Source of the DNA: Actinomycetota bacterium
GTDB taxonomy: Bacteria > Actinomycetota > Actinomycetes > Streptosporangiales > Streptosporangiaceae
Direction: 5' to 3'
Assembly (NCBI GenBank): GCA_027313705.1
Contig: DAHVDE010000115.1
Location: forward strand, 1 to 64,000
DNA length: 64,000 nt
Both the position numbers and the translations under genes were made by a program. The notes under the pieces were generated by a model. It did not search any database, was not told where the DNA came from, and was given only the letters and a program-made list of their open reading frames with translations. This document shows, piece by piece, positions 20,475-31,045 of the stretch (position 1 is the stretch's first letter; every line of letters starts with the position of its first letter).

Positions 20475-21740
20475 TCAGGTGACCCGGGAGAGCGGCGGGG
20501 CCAGGCTTGAGTAGGTCCCGTCGGCCATGATGGTTCTCAGCCGGTCCATGGCGTCCCAGATATCAGTGAAGCGAGTGATCACGGCGGCCGGACCCAGCCT
20601 CAGCCGATCGGGCGTGCGGTAGTCACCGGTGACGCCGGCGGCGATGAGTGCCTGGCTGATCCGCCAGGCGTCCGGGTGACTGAGCGTGACATGTCCGCCG
20701 CGTCTGGCGTCGGCGCGGGGGGAGGCGAGGCTGAAACCGTGCGGTGCCAGCCACTGGTCTGCGAGGTAAATCAGGTAGCCGGTGAGGGTGACCGACTTGG
20801 CGCGCAGGCGTGCCATTCCGGCTTCGCCAAGCAGTTTGGTGCCCTCGGCGACGGCCACTGTGCCCAGGATCTGCGGCGTGCCGGTCGCGAAGTGCTCGAT
20901 TCCTGGTACCGGGTCGTAGGCAGGCCCCATCGCGAACTGGTCGGCCTGGCCGAACCAGCCCCACACCGGCTGCCGCAGCCTGCTTTGGAGCCCGGTCCTG
21001 ACATAGAGAATCGCGGGTGCTCCGGGGCCGGCGTTGACGTACTTGTAGGTGCAGCCGACCGCGAGGTCGGCGCCGCTCGCGTCGAGTTCGATCGGCACCG
21101 CGCCGATCGAGTGGCAAAGGTCCCACAGCATCAGCGCGCCGCAGTCGTGCACCAGGTCTGTGATCCTCGGCATGTCGGCGAGCGCGCCACTGCGGTAAGC
21201 GACGTGTGAAAGGCTGACCAGGGCGACGTCAGGTCCGAGCGCGCTGCGCAGTGCGTCCTCGCTGACGCCCTCGTCCAGGTCGGTGTGGATCATGCGCAGT
21301 TCGCAGCCGCGCTGAGCCGCGATCCCCTGAAGCACGTACCTGTCGGTAGGGAAGTTGTCGTCGTCGGTGATGATGACCCTGCGGCCAGGCTGGGCGTCGA
21401 GTGCCGCGTTCACCAGCTTGAAGAGGTTGACCGTGGTCGAGTCGCTGACCAGGGTCTGGCCTGGCGCGGCACCGACGAGGTGCTCGCCCACGAGGTCGCC
21501 GGTCTCGCGCGGGAGTCCGACCCAGTGGTCCCAGGAACTGACCAGGCCTGCGCCCCACTCCTGGCTTACGACTTCGGCGATCCTCGCCTGCGTGGCCAGC
21601 GGCAGCGGGCCGAGAGAGTTGCCGTCAAGGTAGATCTGGTTTCCGCCGGCCCTTGCAAAGCTGTCCCTGAACCTGGCCAGGGGGTCGGCGGCGTCGAGTT
21701 GTTCGGCATATGTCCGGTCGAGCGGCAATGCGGTAGTCAC
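20475..21740 (-). CDS. kynU: Kynureninase
   Basis: PLP enzyme that cleaves kynurenine to anthranilate and alanine in tryptophan breakdown. 421 residues from a GTG at 21740. The N-terminal YLDGNSLGPLP and the region DSTTVNLFKL, ITDDDNFPTDRY are typical. The PLP lysine is in GCTYKYVNAGPGAPA, preceded by LMLWDLCHSIGAVP. The start has TATCGT 6 nt upstream and no ribosome site, so it is probably leaderless. Tryptophan 2,3-dioxygenase and kynurenine formamidase are not next to it. Confidence 0.95.
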   Translation of the reverse strand: MTTALPLDRTYAEQLDAADPLARFRDSFARAGGNQIYLDGNSLGPLPLATQARIAEVVSQEWGAGLVSSWDHWVGLPRETGDLVGEHLVGAAPGQTLVSDSTTVNLFKLVNAALDAQPGRRVIITDDDNFPTDRYVLQGIAAQRGCELRMIHTDLDEGVSEDALRSALGPDVALVSLSHVAYRSGALADMPRITDLVHDCGALMLWDLCHSIGAVPIELDASGADLAVGCTYKYVNAGPGAPAILYVRTGLQSRLRQPVWGWFGQADQFAMGPAYDPVPGIEHFATGTPQILGTVAVAEGTKLLGEAGMARLRAKSVTLTGYLIYLADQWLAPHGFSLASPRADARRGGHVTLSHPDAWRISQALIAAGVTGDYRTPDRLRLGPAAVITRFTDIWDAMDRLRTIMADGTYSSLAPPLSRVT

Positions 21741-21746
21741 CAGCCA

Positions 21747-21752
21747 ACGATA
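21747..21752 (-). promoter_or_regulatory. -10 box for leaderless kynU
   Basis: TATCGT on the minus strand, ending 6 nt before the GTG start. Confidence 0.4.
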
Positions 21753-21794
21753 ACTAGCCGCTCGTTCGCCACCAAGCCCCCGTCTGATGCTTGG

Positions 21795-22739
21795 TCAATG
21801 CCGGCGTAGCCGGCGGCGCCAGCCGATGATAATCACTGCGGTCACGCCTGCCAGGACGGGGAGTGACCGCTTGAGCACCGGAATCCCTGCCACTTTGAGC
21901 AGGTTAAGTGAATCGTCCTTGCGCCTGACCGGACGCCGCCGCGCCGTGGCCTTGACGGTCGCGTCGGCACCTGAAACCGTGCCCTGGCCATTCGACGCAG
22001 CCTTCGGCGCGGACGTGTCCTGGGTGTTCTTGTCGCCGGCGGCAGGCGTGGCCTGCGCTTCGCCGGCTGATGCCAGGGCCAGGCCGTGCTCGGCCAGCTT
22101 CGCCGTGATCTCGTCTAGTGACGCCGGGCCGATTCCGTCGAGCGCGAGCAGGTCTTCTGAGGTCTTCGCTGTCAGCTGGCTGGTGGTGGTGATGCCGTCC
22201 TTGTGCAGGACTGATACCGTCCGCGCGTTCAGGTGCAGGTCCTGGATCGGGAGGTCGGCTTGCCCGGCAGGGGAATCCGGTGCAGGTTCCGCCTCGCTCT
22301 CGGCGAGCATGGCGGCGAGGTTGTCGGCGAAGATGCCGATCAGCTTGCCGCCGACCTCGTTCATCACGCCCCGGCCGAACTGCGCTGGCTTGCCGGTCAC
22401 GTTCATGGTCGTCTGCACGGTGACGCGAGTTTGCCTGCCGCTACCTTCGAGGAAAGAGCGGACCGTGGCGGACGCCGTGCCCGCACCCTTCGTTTCCTTG
22501 CCTGAGGCGTCCATCCTGATGACGCCCGCGGCCTGGTCTTTCTCGACGATCTCCGCCTTGCCGGTGTAGGTCATGCTGATCGGCCCCACCTTGACCTTTA
22601 TCCGGCCGCTGATCACGTCGCCGTCGACCGAGTCGAGGGTGGCGCCAGGCATGCAGGGCGCCACCCTTTCGACGTCGAGCAGCACATCCCAGGCCCGCTC
22701 CATAGGGACCGGGACGGTGAATGAGTGCTCTAGTTCCAT
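21795..22739 (-). CDS. coxG: CoxG-type SRPBCC protein fused to an RNA polymerase alphaCTD-like domain
   Basis: 314 residues. Residues 1–146 form a CoxG/SRPBCC lipid-binding fold: HSFTVPVPMERAWDVLLD, then VAPCMPGATLD and GRIKVKVGPISMTYTG. CoxG proteins work with Mo-dependent CO dehydrogenases at the membrane. Residues about 163–223 align without gaps to the C-terminal domain of the RNA polymerase alpha subunit, including LPIQDLHLNARTVSVL and the helix-hairpin-helix LLALDGIGPASLDEI. The arginine equivalent to E. coli R265 is kept. An Ala/Thr/Lys-rich linker follows, then one membrane helix (about 288–306) and a basic tail RRRLRRH. It is the last gene of the cox operon, 63 nt after coxM, with GGGAG 8 nt before its ATG. 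The domain may act as a protein-protein or nucleic-acid contact; its role is unknown. Confidence 0.88.
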   Translation of the reverse strand: MELEHSFTVPVPMERAWDVLLDVERVAPCMPGATLDSVDGDVISGRIKVKVGPISMTYTGKAEIVEKDQAAGVIRMDASGKETKGAGTASATVRSFLEGSGRQTRVTVQTTMNVTGKPAQFGRGVMNEVGGKLIGIFADNLAAMLAESEAEPAPDSPAGQADLPIQDLHLNARTVSVLHKDGITTTSQLTAKTSEDLLALDGIGPASLDEITAKLAEHGLALASAGEAQATPAAGDKNTQDTSAPKAASNGQGTVSGADATVKATARRRPVRRKDDSLNLLKVAGIPVLKRSLPVLAGVTAVIIIGWRRRLRRH

Positions 22740-22802
22740 CTCGTTAAGCTCCCGCTCAGTAAACCAACGCTAAACCAACGCCGGAAGCGCGGTCGCGGAT
22801 GT

Positions 22803-23666
22803 CTAATCCGCCGCCCGTGCCGCCGCAGCCAGTGCCCGGCCGGTCAGTACCCGCGCGAGGTGGCGCCGGTAGTCGGGCGCGCCGTGCAGGTCTGCCGGTG
22901 GTTCGGTTCCATCGGCCGCGCTCGCCGCAGCCGCGCTGAGCGCAGCACGGGTGGCCTGCGCCCCAGCGACAGCCGCCTCGGTGGCGGTCGCCCTGATCGG
23001 GACCGAGCCCATGTTCGTGAGCCCGACCCTGGCTTGCGTCACATGCCCGTTCGATCGCCTGGCCAATGCGGCCACGCCGACGATCGCCCAAGCCTGCGCG
23101 GTTCGGTGGAACTTCTCGTAACGATAACCCCACTCAGGTCCGAGCTTTGGCACCCGTACCCCGGTAAGGACCTCGTTGGGTGCGAGAGCCGTGGTCAGGT
23201 AGTCGATGAAGAACTCAGCGGCGGGGATTTCCCTGTCGCCGTCTGGGCCAGTGGCCGCCATCCTGGCTTCGAGTGCCAGCGCTACCGCAGGCAGGTCGCC
23301 CGCCGGGTCGCCGTGGGAAAGGGAGCCTCCGATGGTTCCCCTGTGGCGGACAGCAGGATCGGCCACGGTGCCCGCGGCCTGCGCAAGCAGGCCGCAGTGC
23401 TCGGCGATCAGCGCGTCGCGAGTGAGGTCGTAGTGAGTCGTGCCCGCGCCGATGAGCAGCGAGTCGCCCTCGTCGATGACCTCGCGAAGCTCGGCTACAC
23501 CGCTGATGTCGACGAGCAGTTCAGGATAGGAAAGCCTGAGCCGCAGCAGCGGCAGCAGGCTCTGGCCGCCGGCGATGACCTTGGCGTCCTCGCCGGCGTT
23601 TTCCAGGGCGGCGACGGCGTCGTTCACCGTGGCCGCCTTGAAGTAGTCAAACTTCGCGGGAATCAT
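22803..23666 (-). CDS. coxM: CO-dehydrogenase-like medium subunit (FAD-binding)
   Basis: FAD-binding subunit that passes electrons from the iron-sulfur subunit. About 287 residues from an ATG at 23666, which overlaps the coxL stop by ATGA, so translation is coupled. The N-terminal FDYFKAATVNDAV and the FAD motifs VIAGGQSLLPLLRLRL and RHRGTIGGSLSHGDPAGDLP are present. The C-terminal half has GYRYEKFHRTAQAWAIVGVA. Second last gene of the operon. Confidence 0.95.
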   Translation of the reverse strand: MIPAKFDYFKAATVNDAVAALENAGEDAKVIAGGQSLLPLLRLRLSYPELLVDISGVAELREVIDEGDSLLIGAGTTHYDLTRDALIAEHCGLLAQAAGTVADPAVRHRGTIGGSLSHGDPAGDLPAVALALEARMAATGPDGDREIPAAEFFIDYLTTALAPNEVLTGVRVPKLGPEWGYRYEKFHRTAQAWAIVGVAALARRSNGHVTQARVGLTNMGSVPIRATATEAAVAGAQATRAALSAAAASAADGTEPPADLHGAPDYRRHLARVLTGRALAAAARAAD

Positions 23667-26032
23667 GCCGCGCCTCCGGTCGTATTCGCTGCCTTCGCCG
23701 TCTCGATAGCCCGCCAGACTCGTTCCGGGGAGCACGGCATTGTCACGTCCCTTATCCCGAAGGGCCTCAGCGCATCGACGACCGCGTTCACCACGGCAGG
23801 CGTCGAGGCGATCGTGCCCGCTTCGCCTACGCCCTTGACGCCGAGACGGTTCGCGGCCGGGCTCTCGGTCCGGTCGGTGATGTAGGAAGGCAGGTCAGCC
23901 GCTGACGGCACCAGGTAGTCAGCGAACGTCGTGGTCAGCAGGTTGCCCGCGTCGTCGTAGACGGCCTCTTCGTAAAGGGCCTGGCCGATACCCTGGGCGA
24001 TGCCGCCGTGTACCTGGCCGTCCACGATCAGCGGGTTCACTACCTTGCCGATATCGTCGACCGCCACGTACTTCCTGATCGAGACCATGCCGGTGTCGGT
24101 GTCCACCTCCACCGCGCACAGGTGCGTGCCGTGCGGGAAGGAGAAGTTCTCCGGGTCGTAGGTCGAGTCGGAATCGAGCGAGGGCTCGACCCCATCAGGC
24201 AGGTTGTGGGCGGCGAAAGTCGCCAGCGCGACTTCCTGGATCGAGACCACCTTGCCGCCGCCCACGCTGAACTTGCCGTGGCTGAACTCGACCGACTCGG
24301 GCGGGGCTTCGAGCATCGCCGAGGCGATGACCTTGGCCTTGGCGATCACCTTGTCGCAGGCGCCGACCACGGCCATGCCGCCTACCGCCAGCGACCTCGA
24401 TCCGTAGGTGTCCATGCCCTTGGGCGACACCTGGGTATCGCCGTGCAGCACCCTGATGTGCTCGAAAGGCACGCCAAGCTGGTCGGCCACGATCTGGCTC
24501 CAGGCTGTCTCGTGACCTTGGCCGTGCGCGCTCGACCCGGTGACCACCTCGACCTTGCCTGTCGGCAGCATCCTGATCGACGCGCTTTCCCAGCCGCCCG
24601 CTCCGTAAGACAGCGAGCCGAGGACGCGGGAGGGCGCCAGACCGCACATCTCGGTGTAGGTGGAAACTCCGATCCCCAGCCTTACCGGGTCGTTCTCGCT
24701 GATCCTGCGTTCTTGCTCGGCCCTCAGTTCGTCGTAGCCGAGTAGTTCCCTGGCACGTGCCGTCGCCGCCTCATAGTTTCCCGAGTCGTAGGTCAGGCCG
24801 CAGATGGATGTGAAGGGAAATTCCTCGTGCTTGATCCAGTTGCGCTCGCGCACCTCTAGCGGATCGAGCTCGAGTTCGGCCGCCAGTTCGTCCATGATCC
24901 GCTCGATCCCGAACGTGGCCTCCGGCCGCCCGGCACCGCGGTAGGCGTCGGTGGGCATCTTGGTGGTGAAGACCCCGGTGCACTTGAACGAGTAAGCGTC
25001 CATCTTGTAGATGGCGGGGAACATGAACGCGCCGAGCAGCGGAACGCCTGGAGTGACAAGCATCAGGTAAGCGCCCATGTCGGCGAGCAGGTCGACCGAC
25101 AGGCCCCTGATCCGGCCGTCGCTGTCCGCGGCGATCTTGATGCGCTGCCATTGGTCGCGGCCGTGGTGCACGGTCAGGTTGCCCTCGGTGCGTGACTCGG
25201 TCCACTTGACCGGCTTGCCGAGCTTGCGCGAGATCAGCACGGCGAGCACTTCTTCCGCCGTGACCTGAAGCTTGGACCCGAAGCCGCCGCCGACATCAGG
25301 GGCGATGACCCTGATGTCTTGTTCGGGTATGCCAAAGAAGGCCGCGAGCGCGAACCTGAGCACGTGCGGGATCTGGGTCGCCGACCACAGCGTCACCTGG
25401 TCGCCGTCCCAGGCGGAAACGACCGCCCTTGGCTCCATCGCGCATGGGATAAGCCGCTGCTGCCGGTAGTCGCGCTGGATCACGACCGGCGCGTTCGCGA
25501 ACGCCGCGTCGAGATCTCCGGCGGCGAATACCCATTCGTAGCTCTTGTTGCCTGCCTCGTGCACCTTCGGCGAATCCTCCGCGAGTGCCTCACGCATGTC
25601 GAGTACCGGCGGGAGGTTCTCGTAGGTGACGTCCACTGCGGCCAGCGCGTCCGCCGCGGTATAGCGGTCCCTGGCGATCACCGCGGCTACCGCCTCGCCG
25701 ACGTAGCGGACCTCGTCGACCGCCATCGGCGGGTGAGGCGGGATCACGATGTCCTCGGTCACCGGCCATGCGCACGGCAGGCTGCCCTGCTGATCGGCCA
25801 GGTCGGCGCCAGTGAACGCGGCCACGACGCCCGGCATCTTCAGCGCGCCGCTGACATCGACAGAAACGACCTTGGCGTGAGCGACCGGGCTGCGGACGAA
25901 GGCCATGTGCAGCATGCCCGGCAGCACGATATTGTCGGTCCAGTTGGTCTGGCCGGTGATGAGCCTGGCATCTTCCTTACGGCGACGGGCCCGGCCAAGC
26001 TCGGCGACCGGCGGTTCCTCGGTAACAGTCAT
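23663..26032 (-). CDS. coxL: CO-dehydrogenase-like large subunit, form II (molybdopterin)
   Basis: Catalytic molybdenum-cofactor subunit of the xanthine oxidase family, 789 residues. The active-site loop reads AYRGAGR (residues about 363–369), which marks form II rather than true form I CO dehydrogenase (AYXCSFR). Whether it oxidises CO, an aldehyde or a heterocycle is therefore open. Other Mo-cofactor motifs are [11 protein letters not shown] and, near the C-terminus, [10 protein letters not shown] with the catalytic glutamate. The gene overlaps coxS and coxM by ATGA at each end. No Mo-cofactor maturation genes (coxD/E/F) are found around it. Confidence 0.95.
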
Positions 26033-26496
26033 CGGGCCGCTCCTGCCTGCGATGCGCTGCGGACAGCGCGGACGATGTGCTCATAGCCCGTGCACCGGCA
26101 CAGGTTGCCTTCTAGTCCCTCGCGGATCTGCTCGTCGGTCGGGTTCGGGTTGTCCCGCAGCAGGTCGACGCTCGCGAGGATCATGCCAGGCGTGCAGTAA
26201 CCGCACTGGAGCGCGTGCTCCTCGTGGAACGCGCGCTGAAGCGGATGCAACTCGCCGTCGGCCAGGCCTTCGATCGTGGTAATGTCCGCGCCGTCCGCCT
26301 GGACGGCGAGCACCGAGCAACTCTTGACGGACACGCCGTTCATCAGCACAGTGCATGCGCCGCAGTTGGACGTATCGCATCCAATGGGTGTACCGGTCTT
26401 CCCGAGCACATCTCTTAGATAGTGCACGAGCAGCAGCCTTGCCTCTACCTGGTCGACGTAGCTGACCCCGTCGACGGTCACCTTTATCTCGGTCAT
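26029..26496 (-). CDS. coxS: CO-dehydrogenase-like small subunit ([2Fe-2S])
   Basis: About 155 residues with two [2Fe-2S] clusters: a plant-ferredoxin type set in [11 protein letters not shown] plus a later Cys in SVKSCSV, and a four-helix set in [10 protein letters not shown] and LCRCTGY. The ATG at 26496 is preferred because GAGGAG lies 7 nt upstream; the frame begins five codons earlier. It is the first gene of coxS-coxL-coxM-coxG and its stop overlaps the coxL start. Confidence 0.95.
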
Positions 26497-26562
26497 TCGC
26501 TGGCTCCTCAAAGACGGCTGATGCGCCTGATGCCAAACCTAGAACCGGCGTACCCCGTGGCA

Positions 26563-26587
26563 CCAGTCCTCACTCGGTGCGGACTGG
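26563..26587. terminator. Inverted repeat between the GDT1 gene and coxS
   Basis: CCAGTCC-N11-GGACTGG, a perfect 7-bp repeat. It lies 44 nt after the stop of the exporter gene and 67 nt before coxS, both minus strand. It could be a terminator for the first or an operator for the second. Confidence 0.45.
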
Positions 26588-26630
26588 CCTGAGCGAGGTG
26601 GATGGCGGGGGTGGGGCGTAATTGATGGGG

Positions 26631-27212
26631 TCAGCTGGTGATCGCGTTGACCAGTGCGAAGCTGGCCAAGGCCGCCATCGCGATCGCGACCAGCCTGGTG
26701 ATCAGACGGACAGGCAAGAACCTCGTGATCACCCGGCCGAAGGCGGCGACAATGGCAGCGACCGACCACAAGGCGAGCAGGCTGCCAAGGCCGACGGCCA
26801 GCGGGTCGTGGTATTTGGCGCCCAGATCCACGACCAGGATCTGGGTGAGGTCGCCGAACTCGGCGGCCAGAACCAGGCCGAAGCTCGTGGCGGCCACGCG
26901 GGTAAACGCGGGCGTGCCAGGCTCGCGGGCTTCCTTGCCAGCGCCTTCGCCGTGCGTGCGCAGCAGCAGCCAGGCGCAGGCCAGGAACAGCAAGGCGACT
27001 ATCACCTCGAGCAGGCGATGCGGCAGCAGAGTGAGGAGGCTGCCGATGGTGAGCGCGAGGCCGACGTGCACGGTGAAGGCGGCGGCCGCGCCCGCAAAGA
27101 CCGGGAGCGGCCGGTACCTGGTGGCGAGGGTCAGGCAGGCGAACGCCGTCTTGTCCGGCAGTTCGGCGGTGAAGACAAACGCGAAGCACAGGAGGCAGAC
27201 GGAAAGGCTCAA
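26631..27212 (-). CDS. GDT1/TMEM165 family cation (Mn2+/Ca2+) exporter
   Basis: 193-residue membrane protein with two repeats of the family signature E-x-G-D-(K/R)-(T/S). The first copy reads TAELPDKTAF, where the G is replaced by P, and the second AAEFGDLTQIL. Six hydrophobic segments fit the UPF0016 family, which exports manganese in bacteria. The start is a TTG at 27212 with AAGGAA 6 nt upstream. A yybP-ykoY manganese riboswitch lies directly upstream, which strongly supports Mn2+ as the substrate. Confidence 0.93.
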   Translation of the reverse strand: MSLSVCLLCFAFVFTAELPDKTAFACLTLATRYRPLPVFAGAAAAFTVHVGLALTIGSLLTLLPHRLLEVIVALLFLACAWLLLRTHGEGAGKEAREPGTPAFTRVAATSFGLVLAAEFGDLTQILVVDLGAKYHDPLAVGLGSLLALWSVAAIVAAFGRVITRFLPVRLITRLVAIAMAALASFALVNAITS

Positions 27213-27253
27213 GTGAGTTCCTTACCTGTCCTGGCCGCGTTAGGGCAGGCAGG

Positions 27254-27378
27254 CCTTCGGCGCGGCAGCTAGTAGCTGGCAGCCGAAGGTCTCGCTCGGC
27301 ACCTTGAAAGGCGCCCCAGATCACCGGGCTCAGTTGAGCCGTGTTGACGATGGTCCTGGCGGGAGCTACTCCCCTTCG
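27254..27378 (-). ncRNA. yybP-ykoY manganese riboswitch with expression platform
   Basis: The aptamer runs from 27378 down to 27284. Its 5' side reads CGAAGGGGAGTAGC and its 3' side GCGAGACCTTCGG, matching the invariant GGGGAGUAG and AGACCUU elements, with P1 formed by CGAAGG and CCTTCG. GTCAACA lies between them as in the family. The 3' strand of P1 (CCTTCGGC, 27289–27282) is also complementary to GCCGAAGG at 27261–27254, so P1 and a second hairpin exclude each other. Mn2+ binding would stabilise P1 and free the downstream strand. The riboswitch sits 40–70 nt before the exporter's ribosome site. Confidence 0.88.
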
Positions 27379-27427
27379 TTGGGCAAATGATAACGGACCG
27401 GCCGGAGACTTCCCCGTTCGCGGTACA

Positions 27428-28147
27428 TCATCCGGTCTGTAGCACTTGGAACATCTCGGCCAGGCGCCCTTCCGCGAGTCCGCCGAGTTGTGCTGACCGG
27501 ATTAGCCAGCCGCGGAGGAACTCCTCGAGGTTGTCCATGTGGCCGGTCTGGCTCTCATGAGCGCGCAGCGCCGCAACCTTCCTGCTGAACGTTTCCGTGA
27601 CGTCCACGAAGCGCTCGGACTGCGGCCCTGCCATCATCCAGACCTCGCCCACCGTCCATGGCTGAAGACCCTCGTCGGCGAGTAGTTCAGGGAAGGCGAA
27701 CTGATTCCTGGCGTCTGGGTAGACGGCGTCGAGCGCCGCGGAACCAACCGCGCGGTGATCGGGATGGCTGGCCGGCATGCGCGTGTAGTTGCGCTCGGGT
27801 GACTGGCAGAGCACCCGATCGGGCCTGACCTGCCTGATAACCCTGGCGAGGTCACGCCGCAGCCCGATCGTGGCCTCGACGCGGCCGTCTGGATAGCCAA
27901 GGAAACGCACGTCGTCAACGCCGACGCACTTAGCTGCGGCGGCTTGCTCGGCGCGCCTGAGCACGGCCATGTCGGCGCGGCTCACGGAAGGGTCGCTGCC
28001 GCCGGCGTCGCCGTCGGTGACCACGCAGTAGGTCACATCCAGGCCGGCGTCGGTCCAGGCAGCGACCGTTCCTGCCGCTCCGAAGTCCACGTCGTCGGGA
28101 TGCGCGGTGATTACCAGGACTCGTCTGATCTCGGTTTCTTCAGGCAC
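27428..28147 (-). CDS. PIG-L (LmbE) family deacetylase
   Basis: 239 residues, zinc-dependent N-acetylglucosamine-type deacetylase fold related to MshB. The metal motif is ITAHPDDVDFGAAGT, followed by VVTDGDAGG and, later, the third metal ligand in SHPDHRAVGSAAL. The substrate is unknown; MshB-like mycothiol work or deacetylation of a sugar conjugate are possible. The GTG start at 28147 has no clear ribosome site. It lies 56 nt after the aldehyde dehydrogenase gene on the same strand and may be co-transcribed. Confidence 0.9.
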   Translation of the reverse strand: MPEETEIRRVLVITAHPDDVDFGAAGTVAAWTDAGLDVTYCVVTDGDAGGSDPSVSRADMAVLRRAEQAAAAKCVGVDDVRFLGYPDGRVEATIGLRRDLARVIRQVRPDRVLCQSPERNYTRMPASHPDHRAVGSAALDAVYPDARNQFAFPELLADEGLQPWTVGEVWMMAGPQSERFVDVTETFSRKVAALRAHESQTGHMDNLEEFLRGWLIRSAQLGGLAEGRLAEMFQVLQTG

Positions 28148-28203
28148 GTCGCCTAGAACCCGGCTCAGTAAGGCGTCATTCCCTGCTTCGCGTGCCCTGC
28201 CGT

Positions 28204-29625
28204 TCAGTCCAGGGCGGACATGACGTGCTTGACCCTGGTGTAGTCCTCGAACCCGTACATCGACAGGTCCTTGCCGTAGCCTGAGTGCTTGAATCCGCCG
28301 TGCGGCATCTCCGCGACCAGCGGGATGTGGGTGTTGATCCAGACGCAGCCGAAGTCAAGCAGTCGCGCCATGCGCATCGCACGGCCGTGATCGGTTGTCC
28401 AGACCGAAGACGCCAGGCCGTACTGCGTGCCGTTCGCCCACGCCAGGGCCTGCGCTTCGTCGGTGAACCGCTGGACGGTGATAACCGGGCCGAAGATCTC
28501 GTTCTGGATCACCTCGTCAGCCTGGCGCAGGCCGGTCACCACGCTCGGCTCGAAGAAGTAGCCGCGCGGGCCGGTTTGCCTGCCGCCGGTACGGACTTCC
28601 GCGTGGTCAGGCAGCCTGGCGATGAAACCGGCGACCCGGTCAAGCTGGCCGGCGTTGTTCAGCGGTCCGAAATCGGCTTCTATATCGGGTCCGCCAGTGG
28701 TCTGCGCCTCCGCCTGCTCCACCAGTGCGCTCACGAAGTCGTCGTGAATGCCTGGGCCGGCGATCACGCGAGTCGCGGCAGTGCAGTCCTGGCCCGCATT
28801 GAAGTAACCGGCGATCGCGATCGCCTCAGCCGCCTTGGCCGGGTCGGCGTCGTCGAACACGATGACCGGCGCCTTGCCGCCCAGTTCCAGGTGGACTCGC
28901 TTAAGGTCGGCGGCGGCCTCTACGGCCACTTCCTTGCCCGCTCGCACGCTGCCCGTGATCGAGACCATCCGGGGTACCGGGTGCGACACAAGGGCACGCC
29001 CGGTGTCCCTGTCACCGCAGATGACGTTGAAAACCCCGGCAGGCAAGTGCTCGCTCATGATCTCGGCCATCATCAAGGTCGTCACCGGCGTGGTGTCCGA
29101 TGGCTTGAGCACGACGGTGTTGCCGGCCGCAAGCGCAGGAGCGAACTTCCACACCGCCATCATCATGGGGTAGTTCCATGGCGTGACCTGAGCGCAGACG
29201 CCAACGGGCTCACGCCTGATCATCGAGGTGAACCCGGCCATGTACTCACCCGCCGACCGGCCTTCGAGCATCCTGGCCGCAGCGGCGAAGAACCTGATCT
29301 GATCGACCATAGGCGGGATTTCCTCCGACATGGTGAGCCCGAGCGGCTTGCCGGTGTTCTCAGATTCCGCCGCGACCAGGTCAGCTGCCTTGGCCTCGAT
29401 CGCGTCGGCGATCCGCAGCAACGCCAGGCTGCGCTCGGCCGGAGTCGCGTCCCGCCAGCCGTCAAACGCCTTCGACGCGGCGCTGAACGCCGCGTCGACA
29501 TCGGCCTGTCCGCTCACCGGCGCGGTGGCGAACGCCTCGCCGGTAGCGGGGTTGATCAGATCAGCCCTGGTGTTGCTGGCCGGTTCCGCCCATTGGCCGC
29601 CGACAAAGTTACGCAGTTCTTTCAT
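28204..29625 (-). CDS. Aldehyde dehydrogenase, gamma-aminobutyraldehyde-type
   Basis: 473-residue NAD(P)-dependent aldehyde dehydrogenase. The sequence resembles aminobutyraldehyde dehydrogenases (PatD type) of putrescine breakdown: VCAQVTPWNYPMMMAVWK, ITGSVRAGKEVA, general base Glu in HLELGGKAP, and nucleophile Cys in NAGQDCTAATR. The C-terminus has GGFKHSGYGKDLSMYG. It lies 27 nt downstream of a saccharopine-dehydrogenase-like gene, and a permease gene is divergent from both. This context fits uptake and oxidation of an amine or basic amino acid. Confidence 0.9.
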   Translation of the reverse strand: MKELRNFVGGQWAEPASNTRADLINPATGEAFATAPVSGQADVDAAFSAASKAFDGWRDATPAERSLALLRIADAIEAKAADLVAAESENTGKPLGLTMSEEIPPMVDQIRFFAAAARMLEGRSAGEYMAGFTSMIRREPVGVCAQVTPWNYPMMMAVWKFAPALAAGNTVVLKPSDTTPVTTLMMAEIMSEHLPAGVFNVICGDRDTGRALVSHPVPRMVSITGSVRAGKEVAVEAAADLKRVHLELGGKAPVIVFDDADPAKAAEAIAIAGYFNAGQDCTAATRVIAGPGIHDDFVSALVEQAEAQTTGGPDIEADFGPLNNAGQLDRVAGFIARLPDHAEVRTGGRQTGPRGYFFEPSVVTGLRQADEVIQNEIFGPVITVQRFTDEAQALAWANGTQYGLASSVWTTDHGRAMRMARLLDFGCVWINTHIPLVAEMPHGGFKHSGYGKDLSMYGFEDYTRVKHVMSALD

Positions 29626-29652
29626 GACAGATCTCTTTCATGATGGTTTTCC

Positions 29653-30861
29653 CTATGCGGCGGGCGTTCGCTCGTCGACGGCCCAAGGCGAGCCGTAGTC
29701 GGTCAGCAGGTCAAGGAATGGCCGGGCAGGTAGCGCCTCAGGCCCGAGCACTCCGGCGCCTGCCCAGGCGCCTGAATCGATCAGCTCGAGCGCGACGACG
29801 GGGTTCACCGCGGTCTGCCAGACCACCGCCTGCGACCCGTACTCGGCCATCGACCACGCATTGTCGACCACGTGGTACAGGTAGACCTCACGCGGACGGC
29901 CGTCATTGCCGGTGCCGGTTACCCAGGTACCGGCGCAGGTGAGGCCGGACATCCTGGCACCAAGTTCGGCCGGGTCAGGCAGGCAAGCCGCGACGACATC
30001 GCGCGGTGAGACCTGCTGGCCTGCCACGCTCACCGGCTCGACCGCATCCAGGCCAAGCTTGTGCAGCGTGCGCAGCACGCCGATGAATTCCTCGCCCAGG
30101 CCGTACTTGAAGGTCACTCGGCCGGCGTTGATCCAGCGCGGAATGAGCAGTACTTCCTCATGCTCGACGTTGACGCACTCGACCGGGCCGATGCCGGCCG
30201 GGAAGTTGAAAGTCTCTGGTTCGCTGAACGGCGGCGTGGTGAACCAGCCGCGGTCCGCCTCCCAGACCACGGGCGGGTTCAGGCACTCTTCGATAGTGGT
30301 CCAGATGGAAAATGTGGGCGCGAAGTCGTAGCCGGCCACGACGAGGTTCGCGCCATCCCGCACGCCAATCTCGTTGATCTGGGAGAACATGGTGTCGGCC
30401 GCATGCCTGGCGAACACGTCTGACAGGCCAGGCTCGACTCCGATGCCGACTAGGGCCAGCCGTTCCCTGTCCTGCCAGGCGGACTCAAGCTCGAACTGCT
30501 CGTCACCGAGCTTGACGCCCGTGTCGCTGTGGGGCGCGTCTGGATGCGGCCGGGACAGCGACATCGCCATGTCCAGATAGTGGGTATCTGCCCCCAGGGC
30601 GGCGCGAAACAGGGGCATGACGAAGCGGGGATCGGTGGCATTCATCAAGACGTCCGCTGACACGGCGGTGAGTAGTTCCTCGACCGCGCCCTCGTCCCGC
30701 GCGTCGAGTCGCACCGCGGTGAAGCGGTCGCTCGCGGCGGCCGCTCGCTCCGCTCGCCTGAGGTCGTAGTCGGCGACCACGACCTCAGCGAACGGGCGCC
30801 TGGCCGCTATCCGCGCGAACGCTGTGCCTACCCCGCCGGCTCCGACAAGCAGTATCCGCAT
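29653..30861 (-). CDS. Saccharopine dehydrogenase-like / lysine 6-dehydrogenase-like oxidoreductase
   Basis: 402 residues from an ATG at 30861. The N-terminal Rossmann motif is ILLVGAGGVGTAFARIA and the C-terminal part has the saccharopine-dehydrogenase catalytic fold, with VGIGVEPGLSDVFARHAAD and FSIWTTIEECLNPP. The family includes lysine 6-dehydrogenase and carboxynorspermidine dehydrogenase, so the substrate is probably a diamine or basic amino acid. The frame is open upstream for 32 codons, but TAGGAT sits 7 nt before this ATG, suggesting a leaderless start. First gene of a unit with the aldehyde dehydrogenase. Confidence 0.85.
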   Translation of the reverse strand: MRILLVGAGGVGTAFARIAARRPFAEVVVADYDLRRAERAAAASDRFTAVRLDARDEGAVEELLTAVSADVLMNATDPRFVMPLFRAALGADTHYLDMAMSLSRPHPDAPHSDTGVKLGDEQFELESAWQDRERLALVGIGVEPGLSDVFARHAADTMFSQINEIGVRDGANLVVAGYDFAPTFSIWTTIEECLNPPVVWEADRGWFTTPPFSEPETFNFPAGIGPVECVNVEHEEVLLIPRWINAGRVTFKYGLGEEFIGVLRTLHKLGLDAVEPVSVAGQQVSPRDVVAACLPDPAELGARMSGLTCAGTWVTGTGNDGRPREVYLYHVVDNAWSMAEYGSQAVVWQTAVNPVVALELIDSGAWAGAGVLGPEALPARPFLDLLTDYGSPWAVDERTPAA

Positions 30862-30868
30862 AGAGGCG

Positions 30869-30874
30869 ATCCTA
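30869..30874 (-). promoter_or_regulatory. -10 box for the saccharopine-dehydrogenase-like gene
   Basis: TAGGAT on the minus strand, ending 7 nt before the ATG at 30861. Confidence 0.4.
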
Positions 30875-31045
30875 GTCCCAGGCCGGACTCCACTCACGAG
30901 ACCGGTCGCGTCTCTAGCTTTTTGCCACTGAAATCGTTGAGAATAAGTGCAAGGCATGCCGTATCGGATGGTGTAGGCAAGCCGCCTTCAGCGGGTATGT
31001 AGTCAGGCAGGCCGTGGCGCGCGGCCGCCATAGGAGGCGTGACAC

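Follow-up and report, generated by a model that had tools for sequence, protein, structure and literature searches.

PMC13240472, which cites Kropp 2025, describes CoxG as a membrane protein that binds menaquinone and is thought to deliver electrons from Mo-CO dehydrogenase (Mo-CODH) into the quinone pool; in an AlphaFold3 model it lies close to the FAD region of CoxMSL (PMC13240472; PMC13077300). In PDB entry 8uds, a crystal structure of CoxG from M. smegmatis, the title terms the C-terminus "lipid anchoring". In E. coli RpoA, the C-terminal domain of the RNA polymerase alpha subunit (alphaCTD) contacts DNA through R265 and N268 (PMC11434276). Proteins other than RpoA are already known to carry alphaCTD-like domains; PglW of BREX type 2, for example, is a kinase with an alphaCTD-like helical domain (PMC12839542).

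Here we describe a CoxG that carries an inserted alphaCTD. It is encoded on the minus strand at 21795-22739 (an open frame, 314 aa) of a 64,000-nucleotide stretch of DNA from a Streptosporangiaceae genome, hereafter the window. PglW resembles this protein in using an alphaCTD-like domain as a module outside RNA polymerase and differs from it in being a defence kinase with wHTH modules, an unrelated host protein. An earlier reading of the window from its letters alone (the sequence-only reading) had noticed the domain and knew of no reported CoxG with one, and we likewise found no description of an alphaCTD-CoxG in the open-access literature searched. The protein combines two known domains in a real, conserved architecture that is, within that searchable literature, previously undescribed.

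Identity and Fold of the Domain

The N-terminal part of the protein, residues 6-144 (22308..22724, minus strand), is an SRPBCC domain (PF06240, E 2.4e-16), and the best structural match of the full-length model is 8uds, at 49% identity. The C-terminal anchor (21798..21911, minus strand) consists of a conserved DDxxNLLxVAGxPVLKR motif, a hydrophobic helix, modelled at residues 287-313, and a basic tail. Together with the neighbouring coxSLM genes, the profile and the anchor make up the features of the CoxG class. M. smegmatis CoxG shares the SRPBCC domain, the C-terminal membrane anchor and the coxSLM-type gene linkage, whereas the 8uds construct is a 147-residue SRPBCC domain without an alphaCTD, and the window CoxG has a 61-residue alphaCTD before its anchor. 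The partner enzyme also differs, being form II here and form I for the M. smegmatis protein. The inserted domain lies between flexible, Ala/Pro-rich linkers. Linker 1, residues 147-162 (22254..22301, minus strand), is hypervariable among relatives, with pLDDT <50 at 148-160, and linker 2, residues 224-276 (21912..22070, minus strand), is disordered, with pLDDT about 30.

The domain itself, residues 163-223 (22071..22253, minus strand), is matched by PF03118 (RNA_pol_A_CTD) at residues 161-217, with an E-value of 1.3e-10 and a score of 41.3 bits, well over the gathering cutoff of 23.8; the corresponding domains of its relatives score 45.8-79.6 bits, and several NCBIfam RpoA models match residues 148-236 with E-values down to 3e-12. 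In a phmmer search, the top PDB matches are RpoA alphaCTDs only, and their alignment to the 61-residue query runs ungapped from residue 2 to residue 60. Within the window genome, the next-best match is rpoA, at 40% identity. AlphaFold2, supplied with a small alignment of the window protein and homologues from related loci, models the domain with pLDDT 79-89 in the full-length protein and 88-91 alone. The modelled helices (165-168, 172-180, 186-190, 194-198, and 205-217) form the five-helix alphaCTD fold, and the 44 best-ranked structural matches are all RpoA, with Z up to 12.2. Foldseek and VIA-align both place RpoA alphaCTD at the top, and superposition on the Streptomyces coelicolor alphaCTD (7vpd_S) gives an rmsd of 0.6 Å over 57 residues at 39% identity. 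A generic helix-hairpin-helix (HhH) domain can be eliminated because HHH and HHH_5 reach E-values of about 0.1 only and RpoA tops the structure ranking, with RAD51-type HhH domains below it.

These results confirm that the segment is a true RNA polymerase alphaCTD-type domain within CoxG. The sequence-only reading was right to place it, ungapped, between the SRPBCC domain and the anchor, to equate the arginine of LNAR (R173) with E. coli R265 (LTVR), and to see an HhH in the hairpin GIGPASLDEI. It had also said what would speak against it, a lack of RpoA or HhH profile matches or a disordered segment; the profile searches return RpoA, and the segment is modelled as ordered at pLDDT 79-89 and matches RpoA alphaCTD structures. 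The protein is not itself an RpoA, as its N-terminal part is COXG/SRPBCC, the RpoA assembly domain is absent, and the genome has a separate rpoA. The CoxG domain is thus like that of RpoA in fold, length, ungapped alignment, R265, G296, and S299 equivalents, and flexible tether, and unlike it in lacking an attached RpoA NTD, in the replacement of K298 and often N268, and in residing on a membrane-anchored carrier.

Distribution, Origin, and Selection

A profile search of 299 family genomes, together with locus scans, recovered the domain in 18 different CoxGs from 7 genera (coded g1, g12, g20, g25, g30, g36, and g48), all of them Streptosporangiaceae; the search among coxG homologues that had been proposed for this insert found it beyond the window. 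The remaining Streptosporangiaceae CoxGs examined have a disordered Ala/Pro/Gly-rich linker at this place. The domain is absent from the 27 best non-window matches in a 396-genome phylum sample and from the loci fetched for those matches, and from the two other CoxG paralogues in the window genome (L004, L005); rare carriers beyond the family may still exist. The carriers mostly appear to come from fragmented assemblies and some records are metagenome-assembled, a setting in which pieces of coxG and rpoA could have been joined by misassembly or frame fusion. However, the identical in-frame architecture occurs in 18 proteins with diverged sequences and intact anchors, and a complete rpoA frame lies elsewhere in the window genome. 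Independent homologues in separate assemblies rule out such an artefact, to which we assign a negligible probability.

In a domain tree of 61 columns, the CoxG alphaCTDs form one cluster, 12 of them with support of 91/90. The copy from genome G015 branches between the CoxG domains and RpoA; it shares 64% identity with the RpoA alphaCTD of the window genome. The CoxL proteins of domain-bearing operons form a single clade (support 87/88), as would be expected if one operon lineage had gained the domain once. The CoxG SRPBCC tree alone requires two state changes, and the AU test does not reject a single clade (p 0.31). The simplest reading of these trees is that a host-type alphaCTD would have been captured once in one operon lineage, with possible loss.

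Other alphaCTD proteins occur in Streptosporangiaceae, namely alphaCTD-WD40 proteins (L131, L133), a stand-alone pair (L130), and a 179-aa protein (L132), which shows that in these actinobacteria the alphaCTD moves as a module and has been captured by other proteins as well. Unlike CoxG, none of these (L130-L133) has an SRPBCC domain or an anchor. In L131 and L133 (genomes G048 and G100), the alphaCTD is followed by the start of WD40 repeats, and the stand-alone alphaCTDs (L130/L136; G104:C8:1132703-1134324) are products of 85-87 aa from tandem genes, one of which lacks the R265 equivalent. Genome G017 has a second rpoA-like frame (L128, contig C386) beside the one on C19, either a paralogue or contamination.

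Mean pairwise identity over 153 pairs is 78% for the SRPBCC domain, 61% for the alphaCTD, 60% for the anchor, and 23% and 26% for linkers 1 and 2, which vary freely in length and sequence across carriers. For the domain, most close pairs give a dN/dS of about 0.07-0.27; comparisons with the window's genus give 0.27-0.89, where dS is high and near saturation. These rates indicate purifying selection on the domain, in contrast to the hypervariable linkers on either side, and constraint may be weaker in the window's genus. The relaxed rates there, and the relatives that function with a disordered linker alone at that place, would suit a passive spacer, a domain that landed in a disordered linker by chance and has stayed since it is folded and tolerated. 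The retention of the domain in 18 CoxGs and 7 genera argues against a spacer, as do its low dN/dS and the surface arginine that never varies, while the linkers vary freely; we consider this explanation doubtful though worth some weight.

Operon Context

The alphaCTD-bearing coxG is the last gene of a form II coxSLMG operon on the minus strand, with coxS (2Fe-2S subunit, 26029..26511; PF01799/PF00111), coxL (23663..26032; PF02738/PF20256), and coxM (FAD subunit, 22803..23735; PF00941/PF03450). CoxL has the form II motif AYRGAGR in place of AYXCSFR, the motif of form I CO dehydrogenase, and TIGR02416 scores 655 bits in this operon against a cutoff of 991. The partner enzyme is of form II and is probably not a CO dehydrogenase; for form II enzymes, CO activity is unproven and CO is probably not the substrate (PMC13240472; PMC6794299).

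Downstream lies a kynureninase gene (20475..21740, minus strand; TIGR01814, 265.6 bits against a cutoff of 246.4), and within 20475-31000 the operon also has as neighbours a PIG-L deacetylase, an aminobutyraldehyde dehydrogenase, and a saccharopine-dehydrogenase-like gene. In many related loci kynureninase again lies beside coxG, both with and without the domain, and hints that the enzyme acts in amine- or tryptophan-type catabolism rather than on CO. Plasmid-borne CoxG relatives include those of nicotine- and quinoline-linked Arthrobacter/Paenarthrobacter and Rhodococcus strains, which makes an N-heterocycle or amine a plausible substrate for the form II enzyme.

It had been asked whether the domain follows form II cox operons. 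This holds in one direction, as every carrier with a visible full-length CoxL is form II (AYRGAGR). A coxG without the domain is found in many form II operons, which rules out a general association; the domain instead marks one form II operon sub-lineage. At one locus (L045, in G015), the CoxG with the most RpoA-like alphaCTD is encoded between PIG-L and kynureninase genes, with coxSLM not adjacent and a flavin amine-oxidase-like gene upstream.

The DNA-Contact Face

We counted residues in E. coli RpoA numbering over 17 distinct CoxG domains. The R265 and G296 equivalents are present in 17/17 and S299 in 16/17, and position 302 is E or D; the R265 equivalent is the sole invariant charged residue in a 12-row alignment. 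N268 is kept in 8 of the 17 and lost in 9, and K298 is lost in 16 (A in 14, Q in 2, K in 1). The window domain keeps R265, G296, S299, and E302, has S for N268 and A for K298, and thus does not have the full residue set of a DNA-binding alphaCTD (the 265 determinant); the sequence-only reading did not mention these two replacements. Its net charge is -4, and those of its relatives range from -3 to +1. The G015 copy retains R265, N268, K298, S299, and E302.

One explanation for this pattern is that the domain still binds DNA or RNA through the R265-type arginine and the HhH hairpin, tethering the carrier near the nucleoid or transcription. The invariant R265 and G296 and nearly invariant S299 equivalents, the conversion of the hairpin to a canonical GIGPxS HhH, and the five residues retained in the G015 copy are all in its favor, but the losses at K298 and N268 make ordinary promoter DNA binding doubtful, the acidic charge of the window domain points the same way, and a quinone carrier has no functional reason to contact DNA. 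We regard retained nucleic-acid binding as unlikely. RpoA's DNA-binding face is partly kept and partly rebuilt, so this patch has probably come to bind something else.

Another explanation is that the domain is a membrane-held alphaCTD mimic or decoy that catches activators or other alphaCTD-binding proteins and so relays the state of the enzyme to gene expression. The domains are 39-64% identical to the host RpoA alphaCTD, and activators usually target the alphaCTD, which has been called a hub (PMC11434276). On the other hand, the positions that contact activators and sigma vary (259 is V in 8, E in 5, and D in 4; 286-287 are variable), and the neighbouring frames that were annotated, a part of the total, include no conserved regulator gene. 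A decoy of this kind seems to us very improbable, and the broader proposal of a sensor or decoy that physically links membrane Mo-hydroxylase activity to transcription, through DNA or an activator, fares little better and is rather improbable.

Proposed Role

The changes at most of the other DNA contacts and the net charge of -4 lead us to favor docking, with confidence that is about evenly balanced: the captured alphaCTD would now be a tethered docking arm for a protein partner of the membrane-anchored CoxG. This proposal starts from the domain's identity, its distribution in a single lineage, purifying selection, and the kept R265; the docking and the partner are what we infer from them. CoxG, a putative menaquinone-type SRPBCC carrier anchored in the membrane, would serve the form II Mo-hydroxylase CoxSLM, and has taken up an alphaCTD that is tethered, as in RpoA, by flexible Ala/Pro-rich linkers. 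The old R265 face, which has lost Lys298 and now has a canonical GIGPAS hairpin, may bind a protein; candidates are the CoxSLM dehydrogenase, a second CoxG, and partners in the membrane or the respiratory chain. Once docked, the arm would hold the carrier near its enzyme, and the long linkers on both sides could give the alphaCTD the reach to contact its partner as the SRPBCC domain travels back and forth between the enzyme and the membrane.

Several observations weigh against docking. The invariant R265, as the sole invariant charge, would also fit nucleic-acid or phosphate binding; the domain evolves faster in the window's genus, with dN/dS of 0.41-0.89 against relatives, so that constraint is perhaps relaxed; and the G015 coxG carries the domain though coxSLM is not adjacent. 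CoxGs that lack the domain function in operons of this type, which means that it is not required for docking.

Conclusions

A single group of actinobacteria from soil has kept the domain folded for a long time, apparently to serve a new function in docking and not in transcription. The capture of an alphaCTD into a metabolic membrane protein, with the DNA-binding set partly lost and the key arginine kept, is a clean case of domain repurposing. CoxG was assigned as a quinone-binding carrier only recently, and the addition of a well-known docking domain offers a handle on how CoxG finds its enzyme.
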